From: Terrabacter sp. Ter38
Lineage (GTDB): Bacteria > Actinomycetota > Actinomycetes > Actinomycetales > Dermatophilaceae
Assembly (NCBI RefSeq): GCF_024519435.1
Contig: NZ_JALJRZ010000009.1
Span: forward strand, 62,001-126,000
Direction: 5' to 3'
DNA length: 64,000 nt
The notes below the pieces were generated by a model. The model did not search any database. It was given only the letters and a program-made list of their open reading frames with translations, and was not told the origin of the DNA. Both the position numbers and the translations under genes were made by a program. Within the stretch, counting starts at the first letter, position 1. Each line of letters opens with the position of its first letter. Below, piece by piece: positions 7,490-62,342 of the stretch.

Positions 7490-7696
7490 ATGCCGGGTCA
7501 GGAGCACGTCAAGCCGCAGCGTCGTGACGAGGAGCCGCCGGAGACACCGGAGGCACCTCCGACGGCGCCCGCCGGCGCTGCCGTCAAGGAGGGCCTGTCC
7601 GACGACATCGACAGCGTCCTCGACGAGATCGACGGTGTCCTCGAGTCGAACGCCGAGGAGTTCGTCCGCGGTTTCGTCCAGAAGGGCGGCCAGTGA
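7490..7696 (+). CDS. pup: Prokaryotic ubiquitin-like protein Pup
   Basis: Pup is a 68-residue, largely disordered, acidic protein that is conjugated to lysines as a degradation tag. The C-terminus is ...VQKGGQ, so it is the Gln form that requires Dop before PafA can use it. The central part, from [17 protein letters not shown] onward, is the helix that binds the ARC coiled coil. The ATG follows a strong GGGAGGT ribosome-binding site. The stop overlaps the prcB start (GTGA), coupling translation of tag and protease. Confidence 0.97.
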
Positions 7697-39777: not shown

Positions 39778-40314
39778 ATGGGAAGTGCGTCGGGGGACCA
39801 GGTCGGCCGGATCGTCGAGGCCTGGCACCGCGAGAGGCCCGATGTGGACGTGTCGTCGATCGGGATCATCACCCCGGTCGTGCGGCTCGCCGCGCTCGTC
39901 ATGGACCACCGGGCCGACGTGCTGGCCACCCATGGCCTCGAGCAGAGCCACCTCGACGTCCTCGCGACGCTGAGACGCAGTGGTGCGCCCTTCCGGCTCA
40001 CCGCCGGCGAGCTGTCCCGGCGCTGCCGCGTCACGGCAGGCGCGACGACCCAGCGCGTGCAGGCCATGGAGGCCCTCGGCTTCGTCGAGCGCGTCCGGGA
40101 GGAGCCGGACCGGCGCACCGTGCACGTGCAGCTCACCCCGGGGGGACTGGCCCGGCTCGACGGCCTCTTCGCGGACGTCATGGCCGGCGACGAGTCCCTG
40201 CTGGGCGGTCTCGAGCCTCGGCAGCGCGCCGCGTTGGAGGAGCTGCTGCGCGCGTGGCTCGCCGTGCTCGAGCCGGGCGGCCAGGCCGTCCCGGGCATGG
40301 TCACCCCTGAGTGA
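39778..40314 (+). CDS. MarR family transcriptional regulator
   Basis: This 178-aa regulator has a winged helix at about residues 60-125 (LTAGELSRRCRVTAGATTQRVQAMEALGFVERVREEPDRRTVHVQLT). It is probably leaderless and autoregulated through the overlapping inverted repeat. The likely target is the divergent UMF1-type transporter. Its 3' end overlaps the end of the convergent helR gene by 14 bp. Confidence 0.9.
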   Translation: MGSASGDQVGRIVEAWHRERPDVDVSSIGIITPVVRLAALVMDHRADVLATHGLEQSHLDVLATLRRSGAPFRLTAGELSRRCRVTAGATTQRVQAMEALGFVERVREEPDRRTVHVQLTPGGLARLDGLFADVMAGDESLLGGLEPRQRAALEELLRAWLAVLEPGGQAVPGMVTPE

Positions 40315-42481
40315 GGACGACGAGCTGCCGGGTCGCGCGCGTCATGGCGACGTAGCGGTCGACCGCACCCTCGATGCCGTCGCCGAAGGCCTCCGGGTCG
40401 ACGAGCACGACGAGGTCGAACTCGAGCCCCTTGGACAGCGCCGGGCTGAGCGACCTCACCCGAGGCCGCTCCTCGAAGCCGGGGGCGCCGATGACGCAGG
40501 CCGTTCCGTCGGGGTGCGCGTCGAGCCACGTCCCGAGGACCGCCTCGAGGTCGGCGGTGCAGCCGTGCTGGACGGGCACGCCGCTCGCACGGATCGAGGT
40601 GGGCACGTTGGCGTCCGGGAGAGCGGCGCGGATGACGGGCTCGGCCTCGAGCATGACCTCTTCCGGAGTGCGGTAGTTGATGGTCAGCGACGACAGCGTG
40701 ACCCGGTCGAGACCCACGCGAGCCAGGCGCTCCTGCCACGTCTCCGTGAACCCGTGCCGGGCCTGGGCGCGGTCGCCGACGATGGTGAGGCTCCGCGACG
40801 GACAGCGGCCCAGGAGCATCTGCCACTCCGCGTCGGTCAGCTCCTGGGCCTCGTCCACGACGACGTGGGCGAACGGGCCGGCCAGCAGGTCGGGGTCGGC
40901 GCTCGGTCCGGAGTCCGCGTCGAGGGCGCTCCGGAGGTCGTCACCTCGCAGCATCGACATGACGTGCATGTCCGAGTCGTCCGAGGCGATGAGGTGCTCG
41001 ACGACCGCGGCCCGTTCCGCGCGCTCCGCCGCGAGGGCCGCGTCCCGCTGTCGTCGACGGCGCGAGGCCTCCGGGTCGCCGAGCCGCATCCGGGCCGCGT
41101 CGAGCAGGGGGAGGTCCGACACCGTCCACGCCGTCGGCTCGGCGCGCTGGAGCCGGCGCACCTGCTCGACCGTCAGGTCCGGGGCGCAGCGACGCAGGTA
41201 GGCGGGAACGGTCCAGAGGTCGCCGACGAGGTCAGCGGCGTCGAGGAGCGGCCAGGTCCGTTCGAAGGCGGTGCGGAGCTCCCGGTTCTGCTCGAGCGAG
41301 CGCCGCACCATGGCGGGCGTGGCCTCGAGCTCGACGTCGGCGCCGTCGTCGTCGATCCGGTCCTCGAGGTCGTGCCGCTCGACGAGGATCGTGACCAGCG
41401 CGTCCCACACGTCGTCGCGGGCCTCGTTGTGCGCGGTGCCGAGGCCGGCGGTGCAGGCCTCCGCCCAGTCGGCCGGGGAGAGCCACAGGTCCGCCCACGG
41501 CGTCACGACCTCCGTGCCGCGGGTCGGCGGCTCCTCGTAGAGCGCCACCGCCGGCTCGATCGCCCGGACGAGGTCCATGGACGCCTTGAGGCGGGCCACC
41601 TCCGGGTCGGTCTCCGGGGCGGCCGCGTCACCCTCGGGGACGAGGTCGCGCAGCAGGCACGTCTGCACGCCCTCCTCGCCGAGACCGGGCAGCACGTCGG
41701 AGACGTAGGCGAGGTAGGGCTCGTGCGGGCCGACGAAGAGCACGCCGCCCCGTCGGTGGCCGAGGCGCGGGTCGGAGTAGAGCAGGTAGGCCGTCCGGTG
41801 GAGGGCGACAACCGTCTTGCCCGTGCCCGGGCCACCGTCGACGACGTGCGCGCCCCGGGAGCCTGCTCGGATGATGGCGTCCTGGTCGGCCTGGATGGTG
41901 CTCAGGACGTCCCGCATGCGCGGTGAGCGGCTGGCGCCGAGCGAGGCGATGAAGGCGGACTCGTCGTCGAGCGCCACGCGCCCGTCGAGACCATCCGTGG
42001 TGAAGACCTCGTCCCAGTAGTCCGTGACGCGTCCCCGGGTCCAGCGGTAGCGGCGGCGGCTCGCGAGACCCATGGGGTTGCCGTGGGTGGCCCCGAAGAA
42101 CGGTTCGGCCGCAGGGGAGCGCCAGTCCAGGAGCAGCCGGCGTCCGGCAGCGTCGGTGAGCCCGAGCCGTCCGATGTACAGGGGGTGAGAATCGTTCTCA
42201 GGGACGATGTGACCGAGGCAGAGGTCGATGCCGTAGCGGCGCAGCGTCCGCAGGCGGCCCGTGAGGCGGTGGACCTCCTGGTCGCGGTCGAGCGCGGCCT
42301 GGCCGGCGCGCGCCGGTGCCCGGCGGGCGGCATCGAGACGGTCGGACAGCTCGGCGATCGTCGCGTCGAGGGTCTCGGCGATGGCGGCGAAGTGGAGGTC
42401 GTCGTGGGCGATGAGGGCCGGGTCGGCCTTGGGTGCGAGGTGGTCGCGAAGGTCGAAGGCGCTGGTCGTCAGCGGGTTCAC
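40301..42481 (-). CDS. helR: HelR, RNA polymerase-displacing rifamycin-protection ATPase
   Basis: This 726-aa HelD-like SF1 helicase-fold protein has an N-terminal coiled coil (residues 30-80), Walker A GGPGTGKT and DEAQELTDAEW. Residues 94-96 are Pro-Glu-Asn in GHIVPENDSHPLYIGRLGL, matching the PEN loop of Streptomyces HelR that reaches into the rifamycin pocket. Such proteins pull stalled polymerase off DNA and displace rifampicin. The GTG start is preceded by GGACGGAG. A 25-bp palindrome like the rifamycin-associated element lies 55 bp upstream. It could be an ordinary HelD, but PEN plus the palindrome argue for HelR. Confidence 0.87.
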   Translation of the reverse strand: MNPLTTSAFDLRDHLAPKADPALIAHDDLHFAAIAETLDATIAELSDRLDAARRAPARAGQAALDRDQEVHRLTGRLRTLRRYGIDLCLGHIVPENDSHPLYIGRLGLTDAAGRRLLLDWRSPAAEPFFGATHGNPMGLASRRRYRWTRGRVTDYWDEVFTTDGLDGRVALDDESAFIASLGASRSPRMRDVLSTIQADQDAIIRAGSRGAHVVDGGPGTGKTVVALHRTAYLLYSDPRLGHRRGGVLFVGPHEPYLAYVSDVLPGLGEEGVQTCLLRDLVPEGDAAAPETDPEVARLKASMDLVRAIEPAVALYEEPPTRGTEVVTPWADLWLSPADWAEACTAGLGTAHNEARDDVWDALVTILVERHDLEDRIDDDGADVELEATPAMVRRSLEQNRELRTAFERTWPLLDAADLVGDLWTVPAYLRRCAPDLTVEQVRRLQRAEPTAWTVSDLPLLDAARMRLGDPEASRRRRQRDAALAAERAERAAVVEHLIASDDSDMHVMSMLRGDDLRSALDADSGPSADPDLLAGPFAHVVVDEAQELTDAEWQMLLGRCPSRSLTIVGDRAQARHGFTETWQERLARVGLDRVTLSSLTINYRTPEEVMLEAEPVIRAALPDANVPTSIRASGVPVQHGCTADLEAVLGTWLDAHPDGTACVIGAPGFEERPRVRSLSPALSKGLEFDLVVLVDPEAFGDGIEGAVDRYVAMTRATRQLVVLTQG

Positions 42482-42654: not shown

Positions 42655-42682
42655 AACGCCGATAATCGACATTATGTCACTT
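42655..42682 (+). other. dif: Chromosome dimer resolution site dif (candidate)
   Basis: Reading plus strand, the arms are AACGCCGATAA (XerC side), centre TCGACA, and TTATGTCACTT (XerD side). Against the actinobacterial dif consensus as I remember it (arms TTSRCCGATAA and TTATGTCAAGT, centre TVNACA), 24 of 28 positions agree, including all of the inner 18. It is intergenic, AT-rich and isolated from transcription by a terminator. Confidence 0.75.
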
Positions 42683-42761
42683 TGGGTGAACGCGCCCTCC
42701 CCGCAGGCGCGCTCACACCCGTGGTCCATGACGGTGTCCCTGAGCCGTAGCCTTGCCCGTG

Positions 42762-43964
42762 ATGCAGTGCGACTACTTCGACGCCGGCCGCTGCCGCTCC
42801 TGTGCCCTCATGGGTGTGCCGTATGCCGTCCAGCTCGCCGACAAGGACGAGCGCTGCCGGCGCGCCCTGGTCGGCGTGGCCCCGGACCTCGCCTGGCTCG
42901 ACCCCTTCCCCAGTGCCGAGTCGGCGTTTCGCAACAAGGCCAAGCTCGTCGTCGGTGGTGTCACCGGCGCGGTGACCGTCGGGATCCTCGACGCCGACGC
43001 GAACGGCGTCGACCTGCGTGGCTGCGGCCTGTACGAACCGCCGCTGCAGCGCCTCATCCCCCGGCTCGCGTCCGTCGTCGACGAGATCGGTCTGGAGCCG
43101 TACGACGTGGCCGCCCGGCGTGGCGAGCTGAAGCACCTCATCGTCACCCTCTCCCCCACCGGAGACGTCATGCTCCGGCTCGTCCTGCGATCCCGCCGAC
43201 ACCTGGCCCTTCTCGAGTCTCGCCTGTCGTCGCTCCGGGCCCGGCTGCCGGAGGTGTCGGTCGTCACGGTGAACCTCCAGCCGGAGCACAAGGCCGTCCT
43301 CGAAGGTGACACCGAGATCGTCCTGACCGAGCGCGATGACCTCGCGATGCCCGTCGGCGACGTGACCCTCCACCTGCGCCCCAACAGCTTCTTCCAGACC
43401 AACACCACCGTCGCCGCCGGGCTCTACCACCAGGCGCAGGCCTGGACGCGTGCCGTCGACCCCACCACGGTCCTCGACCTCTACTGCGGCGTGGGCGGAT
43501 TCGCCCTGCACTGCGCCCGAGCGGGCGCTTCCCACGTCATCGGTGTCGAGGTCTCGGCCGAGGCCGTGCGCAGTGCCGAGACCAGTGCGTCGCGGCTGCG
43601 CGCCGAACACCCCGAACTCGGGCGGCTCGAGTTCCGGGCCGGCGACGCCACCGACGTCGGTGCGCTCGACCGGGACCTCCCGGGATCGGGCCGGACGATG
43701 GTCGTCGTCAACCCGCCGCGTCGCGGGATCGGCCCTGACCTGGCCCGATGGCTCGAGGGCTGTGGCGCCACGCACGTGACCTACTCGAGCTGCAACGTCG
43801 ACAGCCTGGCCCGTGACCTGGGCCGCTTGCCGTCCTACCGGGCTCGCGAGGCGCGCCTCTTCGACATGTTCCCCCAGACGTCGCACCATGAGGTCATCGT
43901 CCTGTTGGAGCGTGAATCACGCTCTCAGTCAAGCGATTCCGCCACAGCAGCCGTGTCCCCATGA
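42762..43964 (+). CDS. rlmC: 23S rRNA (uracil-C5)-methyltransferase, RlmC/RumB type
   Basis: This TrmA-family enzyme (400 aa) makes 5-methyluridine in 23S rRNA (U747 by homology to RlmC). The N-terminus MQCDYFDAGRCRSCALMG has the Cys spacing of the [4Fe-4S] cluster. The SAM motif is DLYCGVGGFALHCA. The catalytic Cys is in YSSCNVDSLARDL. TAGCCT lies eight bases before the ATG, with no ribosome-binding site. Its stop overlaps the DUF2332 start. The pair lies between two inverted dif-like sites. Confidence 0.9.
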   Translation: MQCDYFDAGRCRSCALMGVPYAVQLADKDERCRRALVGVAPDLAWLDPFPSAESAFRNKAKLVVGGVTGAVTVGILDADANGVDLRGCGLYEPPLQRLIPRLASVVDEIGLEPYDVAARRGELKHLIVTLSPTGDVMLRLVLRSRRHLALLESRLSSLRARLPEVSVVTVNLQPEHKAVLEGDTEIVLTERDDLAMPVGDVTLHLRPNSFFQTNTTVAAGLYHQAQAWTRAVDPTTVLDLYCGVGGFALHCARAGASHVIGVEVSAEAVRSAETSASRLRAEHPELGRLEFRAGDATDVGALDRDLPGSGRTMVVVNPPRRGIGPDLARWLEGCGATHVTYSSCNVDSLARDLGRLPSYRAREARLFDMFPQTSHHEVIVLLERESRSQSSDSATAAVSP

Positions 43965-45100
43965 CCCGGGCGCCCGACGCCGTCCGGCTGGCGAGGATCC
44001 AGCGGCGCTTCGGTGAGTTCGCGACGGAGTATGCCGCTCTCCCGCTCTACTCGACCGTCTGTGGACACGTCGCCCGCGACGACGAGACCGCGTCGCTGCT
44101 GCTCGCAGCCAGGCCGGGGCAGGCTCGACCGGTGCTCTGGCTCGCCGCCCTGCACCACCTGGTCCTGTGCCGGCCGGACCTGCCTGCGGCACGGTGGTAT
44201 CCGAGTGTCATCGGGGCGGCCAGCGTCCCGCCGGGCGACCCCTGGCCTGACGTGAGGCGGACGGTCCTCGGCCACGCCGACGAGCTGACCCGACTCATCG
44301 CGACGCACGGGACCCAGACGAACGAGGTGAACCGATCCGTCTACGTCGCCGTGGGGCTCGCTGCGGCGACTGTCGACTCCCGCGAGGTTCCGCTCGCTGT
44401 CGTCGAGCTCGGTGCGAGCGCCGGCCTGCTGCTCGGCGTCGACCGTTACGCGGTCGAGCTGTCCTCGCCCACGGGATCGGCACTCCTGGGAGACGGTGCC
44501 TCTCCGGTCCGGTGCGCGGGTGAGGACCGTTCCGGCGTCGGGGCTCTGCTCACGGGCACCGGCGCTGCCCTGCCCCCCGTACACGGCCGCGTGGGCGTGG
44601 ACCTCGACCCTGTCGACCTCGCGTCCGTCGACGAGATGCGCTGGCTCGAGGCGTGCCTCTGGCCGGAGGTGCCGGGCCGCGTCGAGCGCTTCCGCGCCGC
44701 TGCCGACCTCCTTCGCGGAGACCCTCCCACGGTGCTTCGTGGCGACATGGTCGAGCGCCTGACCGAGGCCGTGCGGCTCGCCCGCACCGACGCCGGCGAC
44801 GACGCGCACGTCGTGGTCCTCACCTCATGGGCGATGACCTACCTCCCTGCAGCGCGTCGTCGCGACCTGGTCGCGGTTCTCGACGAGCTGGCCGGGACCG
44901 TCTCCCACCTGTCGTGGCTCACCGCCGAGCCGCGCGGGTGCGTTCCGGGACTCGACGGGCACGAGGATCCGGTGGAGGGAAGCACCGTGCTCGGCCTCCG
45001 GCGCTGGCGCCACGGACACGCGCTCCCTCCCACGGTCCTCGGGACCTGCCACCCGCACGGCACCTGGATCGATGTGTCGCTCCCGCCGGCGGCGCGGTGA
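43961..45100 (+). CDS. DUF2332 family protein
   Basis: This 379-aa cytoplasmic protein of unknown function has the DUF2332 pattern: RRFGEFATEYAALPLYSTVCGHVARD, then VVELGASAGLLLGVDRYAVEL and a C-terminal VLGTCHPHGTWIDV. The ELGASAG segment resembles a SAM-binding methyltransferase loop, but function is not established. It is coupled to rlmC by a four-base overlap. Confidence 0.8.
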   Translation: MTRAPDAVRLARIQRRFGEFATEYAALPLYSTVCGHVARDDETASLLLAARPGQARPVLWLAALHHLVLCRPDLPAARWYPSVIGAASVPPGDPWPDVRRTVLGHADELTRLIATHGTQTNEVNRSVYVAVGLAAATVDSREVPLAVVELGASAGLLLGVDRYAVELSSPTGSALLGDGASPVRCAGEDRSGVGALLTGTGAALPPVHGRVGVDLDPVDLASVDEMRWLEACLWPEVPGRVERFRAAADLLRGDPPTVLRGDMVERLTEAVRLARTDAGDDAHVVVLTSWAMTYLPAARRRDLVAVLDELAGTVSHLSWLTAEPRGCVPGLDGHEDPVEGSTVLGLRRWRHGHALPPTVLGTCHPHGTWIDVSLPPAAR

Positions 45101-45131: not shown

Positions 45132-45159
45132 GCGTTGCATAATGTCGATTATGGGCCAA
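45132..45159 (-). other. Second dif-like site, inverted
   Basis: Reading minus strand, the arms are TTGGCCCATAA (XerC side), centre TCGACA, and TTATGCAACGC (XerD side). About 23 of 28 positions fit the remembered actinobacterial dif consensus. The central hexamer is identical to that of the site at 42655 but the orientation is opposite. It lies between the convergent DUF2332 and fic genes. Confidence 0.55.
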
Positions 45160-45184
45160 TTGCGTTGTGCTGCAAGCGGATTCA

Positions 45185-46372
45185 TCACCGAGCACGTCGC
45201 CCCAAGTCCGCGGCATACGCATCGAGCGCGCGGAGCACCATCGGGGCGCGGTAGACGCGGTTGCGTCGGTGCCCGGTCGACTCGAGCAGGATGCCGTCGT
45301 CGACGAGCCGATGCAGGGCGGCCTGTGCCGTGGGAGCCGAGACACCGAGCTCGCGCACGACGACCCGCGCCGTGACGACGGGCTGGCGGAGCAGCAGGTC
45401 GAGCATCGACCAGGCTGCGGAGCCGGCTCTGGCCGTCACCGTCGCCGCCCAGTCGGCGCGCACCTGTCGGAGCGTCCCGACGAGCCCCTCGCCGATGTGG
45501 GTGCCGTTGCGCGCGGCTTCGGCGACGCATCTGAGGATGGGCTCCACCTCTCCCCCGCGGTAGGCCGTCAGTGCCGCGAAGTAGTCGTCGCGGATGGCGA
45601 GGAGGCCGGCGGAGATGGGCACGGTGACCCGACGGATGGCGCCGGTGTGGAGCAGGACCGAGTGGAGCAGTGCCCGCCCGGTGCGCCCGTTGCCGTCGGT
45701 GAAGGGGTGGATGGTCTCGAACTGGGCGTGCGCGAGTGCGGCGTGGGCGAGCGGCGGCAGGTCGTCGCGGTCCATGAAAGTCACGAGGTCGGCCATCAGT
45801 GCCGGCACGTCGGAGGCCACGGGCGGTACGTACTGCGCCTCCCCCGGGTGGAGGGGGGACCCTCCCACCCAGACCTGCTGCTCACGCCAGTGGCCGGCCG
45901 GGTGCTGCGACTGCTGGGCCATGAGAGCCCGGTGCATCGCGAGCACGGCGTCCTCGTCGAGGCGCCCGGCGAGGTCGAGCGCGGCCTGCATGGTGCGCAC
46001 GTTGCCGAGGATGACCGCGGCGTTGGCCCGGTTGCCCTCGCCGATCTCTGCCTCGGCGAGGGCTCGTGCGGACGAGGTGAGATTCTCGATCTGTGAGCTC
46101 GCTGCGCTCTCGGACCGGAGCAGCACCGAGGCGAACGGGGCGATCTCCCCGGCTCCCCCGGCGTCGAAGGTCGCGAGCAGCCGGGTGGCCTCGTCGAGGT
46201 CGGCGGCGAGGTCGCCGGGCAGCACGAGCTCGGCCCGGGCGATCACGGGCACGACGGCCGCCTCGAACGTGGCGGGGGTGGACCGCTGGGCGCGTCGCGA
46301 GAGGTCGAGCAGACCCTCGACGGGCTGCCAGGGGACCGTCGTCGAGCCGAGCGCGGGCCACGTCGTTTCCAT
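45185..46372 (-). CDS. Fic-domain protein, class II autoinhibited, with C-terminal winged helix
   Basis: This 395-aa protein has the Fic active site HPFTDGNGRTGR at residues 222-233. The inhibitory helix motif S92-x3-E96-N97 (SSQIEN) lies N-terminal to it, which defines class II Fic. Such enzymes usually AMPylate a target, and the Glu blocks ATP until it is released. Residues about 320-385 form a winged helix-turn-helix (VTARVVVRELGVSAPTAQAALHRL). The ATG has AAGGAGG eight bases upstream. A 13-bp inverted repeat just before it suggests autoregulation. No separate antitoxin gene is seen. Confidence 0.9.
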   Translation of the reverse strand: METTWPALGSTTVPWQPVEGLLDLSRRAQRSTPATFEAAVVPVIARAELVLPGDLAADLDEATRLLATFDAGGAGEIAPFASVLLRSESAASSQIENLTSSARALAEAEIGEGNRANAAVILGNVRTMQAALDLAGRLDEDAVLAMHRALMAQQSQHPAGHWREQQVWVGGSPLHPGEAQYVPPVASDVPALMADLVTFMDRDDLPPLAHAALAHAQFETIHPFTDGNGRTGRALLHSVLLHTGAIRRVTVPISAGLLAIRDDYFAALTAYRGGEVEPILRCVAEAARNGTHIGEGLVGTLRQVRADWAATVTARAGSAAWSMLDLLLRQPVVTARVVVRELGVSAPTAQAALHRLVDDGILLESTGHRRNRVYRAPMVLRALDAYAADLGRRAR

Positions 46373-46386
46373 GTCGAAGGCACCTC

Positions 46387-46419
46387 CTTGGTAAAGGTTA
46401 ATGCACAACCTTTACCAAG
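46387..46419. promoter_or_regulatory. Operator-like 13-bp inverted repeat upstream of fic
   Basis: CTTGGTAAAGGTT (46387-46399) and AACCTTTACCAAG (46407-46419) are perfect inverted repeats with a 7-bp spacer. The repeat adjoins the fic ribosome-binding site and probably overlaps its promoter. It lies in the 59-bp gap between fic and amylosucrase, both minus strand. Confidence 0.75.
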
Positions 46420-61757: not shown

Positions 61758-62342
61758 TCAGGCCAGTCGGCGGGCCTGACGGCGCGCGTTGAGCTCGTCG
61801 TCGGGGTGGTCGGCCGGCACGTCCTCGTCGGCACGCTCGCTCGGCAGCAGCGCGAGCTCGCCCTCGACCTCGCGCCACACCCGACCCACGGCGATCCCGA
61901 AGACGCCCTGACCACCCTGCACGAGGTCGATGACCTCGTCGGCGGACGTGCACTCGTAGACGGAGGCGCCGTCGCTCATCAAGGTGATCTGCGCGAGGTC
62001 CTCGACGCCACGCTCGCGCAGGTGGCTGATGGCGACGCGGATCTGCTGGAGGGAGACGCCGGTGTCGAGCAGGCGCTTGACCACCTTGAGCACGAGGATG
62101 TCGCGGAAGCCGTAGAGGCGCTGCGTGCCCGAACCGGTCGCGCTGCGGACGGACGGCTCGACGAGGCCCGTGCGCGCCCAGTAGTCGAGCTGTCGGTAGG
62201 TGATGCCGGCGGCCTTGCACGCGGTCGGACCGCGGTAGCCGGTGTCCTCGGACAGCTCGGGCAGGTCGTCGGTGAACAGCAGGCCCTGGGACCCGGCGGG
62301 CATGACCCGACCGGCGTCGTGCGCGTCCTCGATGGCGGCCAT
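61758..62342 (-). CDS. MerR family transcriptional regulator (Rv1830-like)
   Basis: This 194-aa protein has a MerR winged helix (YRGPTACKAAGITYRQLDYWARTGLVEPSVRSATGSGTQRLYGFRD) preceded by a 30-residue extension. A dimer helix (VVKRLLDTGVSLQQIRVAISHLRERG) follows, then an acidic C-terminus. GGAGGA precedes ATG 62342. In mycobacteria the equivalent gene lies next to DUF151 and ftsR. The target is unknown; an inverted repeat 160 bp upstream may be its operator. Confidence 0.88.
   Translation of the reverse strand: MAAIEDAHDAGRVMPAGSQGLLFTDDLPELSEDTGYRGPTACKAAGITYRQLDYWARTGLVEPSVRSATGSGTQRLYGFRDILVLKVVKRLLDTGVSLQQIRVAISHLRERGVEDLAQITLMSDGASVYECTSADEVIDLVQGGQGVFGIAVGRVWREVEGELALLPSERADEDVPADHPDDELNARRQARRLA

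Follow-up and report, generated by a model that had tools for sequence, protein, structure and literature searches.

The 64,000-nucleotide stretch of DNA analysed here (the window) is likely to hold the dif site of the replication terminus together with a conserved, attenuated, and inverted Xer-type companion that carries an accessory-protein site; I infer binding, recombination, and function from the sequence. At dif sites in general, FtsK activates XerC and XerD, and these resolve chromosome dimers at the replication terminus. The window comprises positions 62001–126000 of contig C54 and is part of a 4.83-Mb draft of the Terrabacter group in 54 contigs.

A probable chromosomal dif site

Positions 42655–42682 are very probably the chromosomal dif. 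The parts of this site and the genes on its two sides are as follows.

40301..42481, minus strand: gene for a HelR-family RNA polymerase recycling motor (NCBIfam NF041254, 1250 bits), on the XerC side of dif
42655..42682, plus strand: dif, AACGCCGATAATCGACATTATGTCACTT, with XerC arm, centre, and XerD arm in an 11-6-11 layout
42655–42665, plus strand: XerC arm of dif, AACGCCGATAA
42666–42671, plus strand: centre of dif, TCGACA
42672–42682, plus strand: XerD arm of dif, TTATGTCACTT
42753..43964, plus strand: gene for an RlmC-like 23S rRNA methyltransferase (NCBIfam E 5e-161; 536 bits, slightly below the curated cut-off of 553)

On the plus strand, the site agrees with 24 of the 28 positions of TTCGCCGATAATVNACATTATGTCAAGT, the actinobacterial dif consensus used here. 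The same score had been given in an earlier reading of this DNA from its letters (the sequence-only reading), and it was reproduced by rescoring. By a first-order Markov model trained on the window, matches of at least 24/28 are expected 1.2e-5 times per genome and matches of at least 22/28 are expected 0.005 times. The runners-up in the 64 kb score 22/28 (45132–45159 on the minus strand, the companion site) and then 18/28. Is there a better dif elsewhere in the genome? The search that the sequence-only reading had proposed found none in the draft; the 20-bp core CGATAATNNACATTATGTCA has a single perfect match in the 4.83 Mb, at 42655–42682, and the companion is the sole additional match when up to three mismatches are allowed. 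The site had also been described as intergenic and far richer in AT than its surroundings, and both descriptions hold. Its AT content is 61% against 29% in the window, where 59 of the 63,973 28-mers are equally or more AT-rich, and it lies between the HelR-family ORF and the RlmC ORF.

A core match with at most three mismatches was found in 178 of the 186 family genomes (161 of 162 among the better assemblies). The arc from dnaA to dif was measured in seven hand-picked family genomes of one or two contigs, as a share of the main contig, and it covers 48–56% in all seven (G049, 50.5%; G098, 51.0%; G092, 49.5%; G022, 55.6%; G046, 53.5%; G042, 49.0%; G060, 48.2%). The wide occurrence of the core and the position opposite dnaA in 7/7 relatives support the earlier proposal of a dif at the terminus.

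The orientation of KOPS and the cumulative GC skew had been predicted to switch at this site. The KOPS counts gave a weak outcome. The motif counted was the E. coli KOPS, GGGNAGGG, and this genus may use a different one. On contig C54, 27 copies face dif and 16 face the other way, and the bias comes entirely from the right of dif (18 toward vs 6 away, against 9 vs 10 on the left). Within the window, 7/7 copies on the right and 5/9 on the left are aimed toward dif. The ratio of toward to away is 55:44 over 580 kb of another contig of the same genus and 92:70 (P 0.049) on 550 kb sampled from G049 as 20 stretches of one replichore and 10 of the other. The GC skew of the two replichores in the G049 sample is +0.005 vs −0.004. 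As for the cumulative GC skew of C54 and a second same-genus contig, the skew is weak and its extremum, about 5 kb from dif, is a minimum, not the maximum that is expected at a terminus if the leading strands are rich in G.

A XerD gene scores above the NCBIfam cut-off (335.1 vs 329.6 bits); it shares a contig with dif, at a distance of about 40 kb. The highest-scoring candidate for XerC is slightly under its cut-off (312 vs 335). There are 13 tyrosine-recombinase matches.

An inverted companion of dif

A second, inverted site near dif was unexpected and is absent from the sequence-only reading. It is described by the following features.

43961..45100, plus strand: DUF2332 gene (Pfam PF10094, E 2e-85), adjoining the companion site
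45132..45159, minus strand: companion dif-like site, TTGGCCCATAA-TCGACA-TTATGCAACGC when read in the orientation of dif, 22/28
45157..45183, minus strand: companion dyad, GAATCCGCTTGCAGCACAACGCAATTG, of the pattern GAAT-N4-TTG-N5-CAA-N4-ATTC, overlapping the outer end of the XerC-type arm
45132–45183, minus strand: whole companion composite, made up of the dyad, the XerC-type arm, the dif centre, and the inner part of the XerD arm
45185..46408, minus strand: gene for a Fic-domain protein with a MarR-like HTH at the C terminus; the stop codon of the gene adjoins the companion's dyad

The companion lies 2.48 kb from dif in inverted orientation, and the XerD sides of both sites face each other. 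The core pattern is found in it with three mismatches (45135–45154, minus strand), and a 15-bp run, ATAATCGACATTATG, is common to dif and the companion. Against the actinobacterial consensus, its XerC-type arm has two mismatches and its XerD side four; against its own dif, there are 4/11 mismatches on each side. The same was seen across 14 genomes. Compared with the dif of the same genome, the two sides of the companion are about equally far off (3–4/11 mismatches on the XerC side, 3–5/11 on the XerD side), and the XerC side is the better one only in comparison with the actinobacterial consensus (1–2 vs 3–6 mismatches). In none of these 14 genomes does the companion have both 11-bp arms conserved, as a second dif would.

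Across the sites, the dyad comes first, and its right end doubles as the outer portion of the XerC-type arm; GCC-NN-TAA (GCT in one site), the centre, and TTATG follow. On the XerD side, the conservation of TTATGCAACGC between species is limited to this TTATG. The NN before TAA is GT, GG, or CA in 16/16 companions and never the GA of dif; thus, the binding of XerC may be weak, or the partner may be a different one among the 13 tyrosine-recombinase matches. Little conservation flanks the composite in 13 aligned sites, save what appears to be the end of the Fic gene.

Distribution of the companion and covariation of its centre

How widely is the companion distributed? In a family-wide pattern search, it was found once each in 16 of the 186 genomes; a seventeenth match, which is the dif of G012 itself, was excluded. 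The companion is present in all nine genomes of the window's genus, 2/2 of Humibacillus, 2/2 of the genus g18, the one genome of Intrasporangium oryzae, and 2/3 of Luteipulveratus. The two sites are on separate contigs in G006 and G053, which leaves 14 of the 16 genomes for orientation and distance. In 14/14, the companion is inverted and lies on the XerD side of dif, at distances of 1463, 2071, 2373, 2396, 2478, 2519, 2985, 2993, 3009, 3128, 4409, 4937, 5382, and 6251 bp.

From the 178 genomes with a core match, 72 loci around dif were retrieved and scored with a position weight matrix trained on 13 companion sites. The 14 companions scored 49.7–67.2, 12 of them being in the training set and those of G049 and G050 outside it, while the next best score was 17.5 and reversed sequence reached at most 5.0. 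The other 58 loci consist of two cut by contig ends (G006 and G053) and 56 that have dif and in which the companion was not found. Thus, a dif can generally do without the companion.

A strict GTDB-wide scan confined the companion to this group of genomes; its pattern was too narrow for companions of the G049 and G050 type. Its matches in Mycobacterium and Corynebacterium were rejected as companions, being those genomes' own dif, and those in Prevotellaceae and Helicobacter look like chance. No additional companion was found in 393 genomes of the class, where the sole other match (G813) resembles a dif variant. A stricter pattern matched only the window's genome and G003 among 396 genomes of the order.

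The dif centres vary widely across the family. In 16/16 genomes, the companion's centre is identical to that of the host's dif, namely TCGACA in 15 and TCCACA in G097. A second core with the genome's own dif centre, or a centre one letter off, occurs in 14 of the 72 loci, and elsewhere there is only one palindromic self-match. Such identity would be expected from strand exchange or from selection for it, and the covariation amounts to one event in one lineage (G097) among related genomes with about three gene contexts. As a separate observation, G010, G097, and others have extra dif-like sites whose centres differ; these are on separate contigs or at a long distance from dif and are perhaps plasmid or element sites.

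Could the companion instead be a site of a protein other than Xer at the terminus (a nucleoid organiser, a fork trap, or an operator), whose likeness to dif stems from a duplicate of dif or from coincidence? I consider this improbable. The centre is nearly invariant and equals that of the host dif also in G097, the XerC-type arm is conserved, the site is always near dif, and a 22/28 match to the consensus is expected only 0.005 times per genome. What speaks for such a site is the behaviour of the dyad. It is dispersed with a fixed spacing, some of its places are in likely coding frames, as is seen for chromosome-organising sites, and dyads apart from companions are more frequent in the 10 kb around dif than in DNA farther away, though the two samples come from different genomes.

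The dyad as a dispersed motif

The dyad is conserved in the companions of 16 genomes. Its best score in the window is 32.9 and the next is 5.8. With up to two mismatches, 29 matches were found in 2.65 Mb, of which 13 are companions and 16 are not. Alternative spacings of the half-sites gave 0–5 matches each in the same 2.65 Mb (0–4 of them non-companion), and a direct-repeat arrangement gave 10. The mean was 0.42 matches (maximum 8) for 199 permuted palindromes, a control that may be low given that the triplets are rare in GC-rich DNA, a fault from which the spacing controls are free. Genomic chance was ruled out by the reversed control (0 matches), by the 0.1–0.33 matches expected under a Markov model, and by the lower palindromic and spacing controls.

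In the window's genome, there are 14 places with the dyad at up to two mismatches; one is the companion and 13 are without an Xer core. Thus, the role of the dyad protein would be wider than the companion. These places are on contigs C6, C11, C22, C33, C43, C53, and C54, and those examined are L341–L347. Three of the seven non-companion dyads examined are in likely coding frames. Around dif, 13 non-companion dyads were counted in 1.34 Mb within 10 kb and 3 in 1.31 Mb farther away, the two samples being from different genomes. A perfect-pattern dyad without an Xer core, GAATCCGGTTGAACCACAACACAATTC, lies near position 7507 of the G027 locus (L060), about 2.4 kb from dif on the opposite side.

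A hairpin formed by the dyad was not clearly supported, as paired cells amount to 79.4% vs 77.3% after shuffling, though only 14/500 shuffles reached the covariation score. The dyad is presumed to be the binding site of an accessory protein, and its dispersal suggests that a chromosome-wide DNA-binding protein recognises it.

Genes around dif and the companion

The neighbourhood genes of the relatives were called with a simple purpose-made gene caller. The RlmC gene is the nearest to dif on the XerD side, and its start is perhaps a GTG or ATG slightly inside the ORF. Seven genomes of the genus have a HelR-family gene as the immediate left neighbour of dif, and it is missing from that place in four genomes (G006, G007, G047, and G048). 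Thus, insertions may be frequent on the XerC side of dif. The sequence-only reading had pointed to the proteasome/helY block, which lies near the terminus in mycobacteria. In the window, pup is about 35 kb from dif, and the helicase beside dif belongs to the HelR family and is not HelY. In one Humibacillus genome (G048, locus L026), three extra genes lie between dif and RlmC, 50–1428 bp to the right of dif; they are without counterpart in the other Humibacillus. I take two of them to be SRPBCC/AHSA-type-like and the third to be an ArsR-like regulator.

The companion follows RlmC and in most cases DUF2332 (which G008 lacks), sometimes with one gene more, in the genomes of the window's genus, of Humibacillus, and of g18. 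In one Luteipulveratus (G096), it is a short insert at the 3′ end of RlmC. In another (G097), RlmC and the next gene are 27 bp apart, and the companion is among other genes, nearer to dif. The genes of the interval are kept in this region by the members of one genus and vary from genus to genus. A gene tied to the companion was sought and not found. The companion tracks dif and not a particular gene.

A gene of family F24 (575–699 aa) precedes the companion in four genomes and looks like one for a secreted CotH-like protein. Dyad-like matches upstream of F24 in three of the four score 17.7–23.3, within the range of other loci. A palindrome resembling GCCCATAA-(C)GGGC was observed upstream of the CotH-like F24 in L018, L019, L025, and L026, and that of L018 includes TTCGCCCATAA, which equals the XerC-type arm of other companions.

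The main rival explanation takes the companion for a domesticated or relic attachment site of an IMEX (Xer-exploiting mobile element) of the TLC type, inserted near dif in the distant past and since reduced to that site. This origin appears unlikely. The layout resembles attP of TLC as reviewed, with a dif-like XerC side and centre and a degenerate XerD side, and the two Luteipulveratus species carry the short insert at different gene junctions. However, when the TLC layout is used as a yardstick, the centre is identical in 14/14 and the XerD side is degenerate, but the XerC-side arm is 3–4/11 off the host dif, unlike in attP of TLC. A circular element integrating at dif should leave direct repeats and not inverted ones. 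Mobile-element genes were not recognised beside the companion in the window, one companion sequence was without a match in plasmid or phage records, and scans of viral contigs yielded, among the matches listed, chance-like or other dif-type sites. No integrating phage or element carrying the companion was recognised beside the site or among the matches listed in the plasmid, phage, and viral-contig collections. The presence of the companion in 9/9 genomes of the genus argues against a mere relic.

Possible interplay of dif and the companion

On the preferred reading of an attenuated Xer-type partner, XerC and XerD, activated by FtsK, would resolve chromosome dimers at 42655–42682. XerC would also bind the companion, and XerD would be held there weakly through cooperativity. 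The companion could then synapse with dif, and the protein bound to the dyad, over the outer XerC side, would control this synapsis. A full exchange would invert the interval and break dif, and the weak arms of the companion would keep such an exchange rare.

Might dif and the companion rather be the two ends of an invertible segment, flipped by Xer as a phase switch? The orientation of sites sets the outcome of site-specific recombination, and inversion is one of its three outcomes (PMC5357621). The inverted orientation, the identical centres, and the covariation in G097 would suit such a switch. However, 14/14 genomes are in one state with dif intact, a single flip would join the XerC arm of dif to the weak XerD side of the companion, and the interval genes differ between genera. 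I regard a phase switch as decidedly unlikely. Hybrid sites from an inversion between dif and the companion were not found among the matches listed for the companion-bearing genomes. A controlled or abortive synapsis is favoured over an inversion switch, because an exchange would weaken the XerD side of dif and no hybrids are listed. According to PMC4246890 and PMC5357621, attP of the TLC phage recombines with dif despite a degenerate XerD side. Thus, recombination can be compatible with a poor XerD side.

As a tentative proposal, the dif of Terrabacter, Humibacillus, Intrasporangium, and Luteipulveratus may possibly have a dedicated cis-partner, an inverted and attenuated Xer site joined to the target of a chromosome-wide dyad-binding protein and held a few kb away on the XerD side, whose centre is kept identical by strand exchange and whose controlled synapse with dif gates dimer resolution or terminus segregation. 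I know of no Xer system that forms a controlled synapse of dif with a dedicated cis-partner.

The dif site marks where replication terminates in a soil genus that has received little study. If the reading is true, the companion is a conserved partner of the chromosomal dif and a second, regulated cis-target of Xer at the terminus; to my knowledge, no conserved partner of a chromosomal dif was known earlier. A title-level literature search of partial coverage found no description of a conserved, attenuated, inverted dif partner in Actinobacteria. The dyad would indicate a protein, as yet without a name, that has about 14 sites on the chromosome.

Comparison with known systems

The actinobacterial consensus was compared with the suggested dif of Frankia alni, CACGCCGATAATGCACATTATGTCAAGT, as quoted in PMC3025954. 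The dif of the window shares its core and its 11-6-11 layout and is the single best match, and dif lies opposite dnaA in the relatives checked, whereas the outer bases of both arms differ (AAC for CAC and CTT for AGT).

Like attP of TLC, a satellite phage of Vibrio cholerae (PMC4246890, PMC5357621), the companion has the centre of dif and an XerC side nearer to the dif consensus than its degenerate XerD side. Unlike that attP, it is chromosomal and conserved, is inverted with respect to an intact dif, bears a dyad, and has no phage genes seen beside it.

The dif/pdif modules of Acinetobacter (PMC6449649, PMC12907356) consist of genes between Xer sites in the order C/D ... D/C, and additional chromosomal dif-like sites are described there. 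The arrangement found in this study resembles them in the inverted Xer pair that encloses genes and in the extra chromosomal dif-like site. It differs in that one end is dif itself and the XerD side of the companion is partial. A moving module of the pdif type was not seen, the interval genes staying with the region within genera.

The sites cer and psi are plasmid multimer-resolution sites. The companion resembles cer in pairing an XerCD-type core with a putative accessory-protein sequence. In contrast to the accessory DNA of cer, which is about 180 bp in length and works with ArgR and PepA (PMC5357621), the companion has one 27-bp dyad that overlaps the arm.
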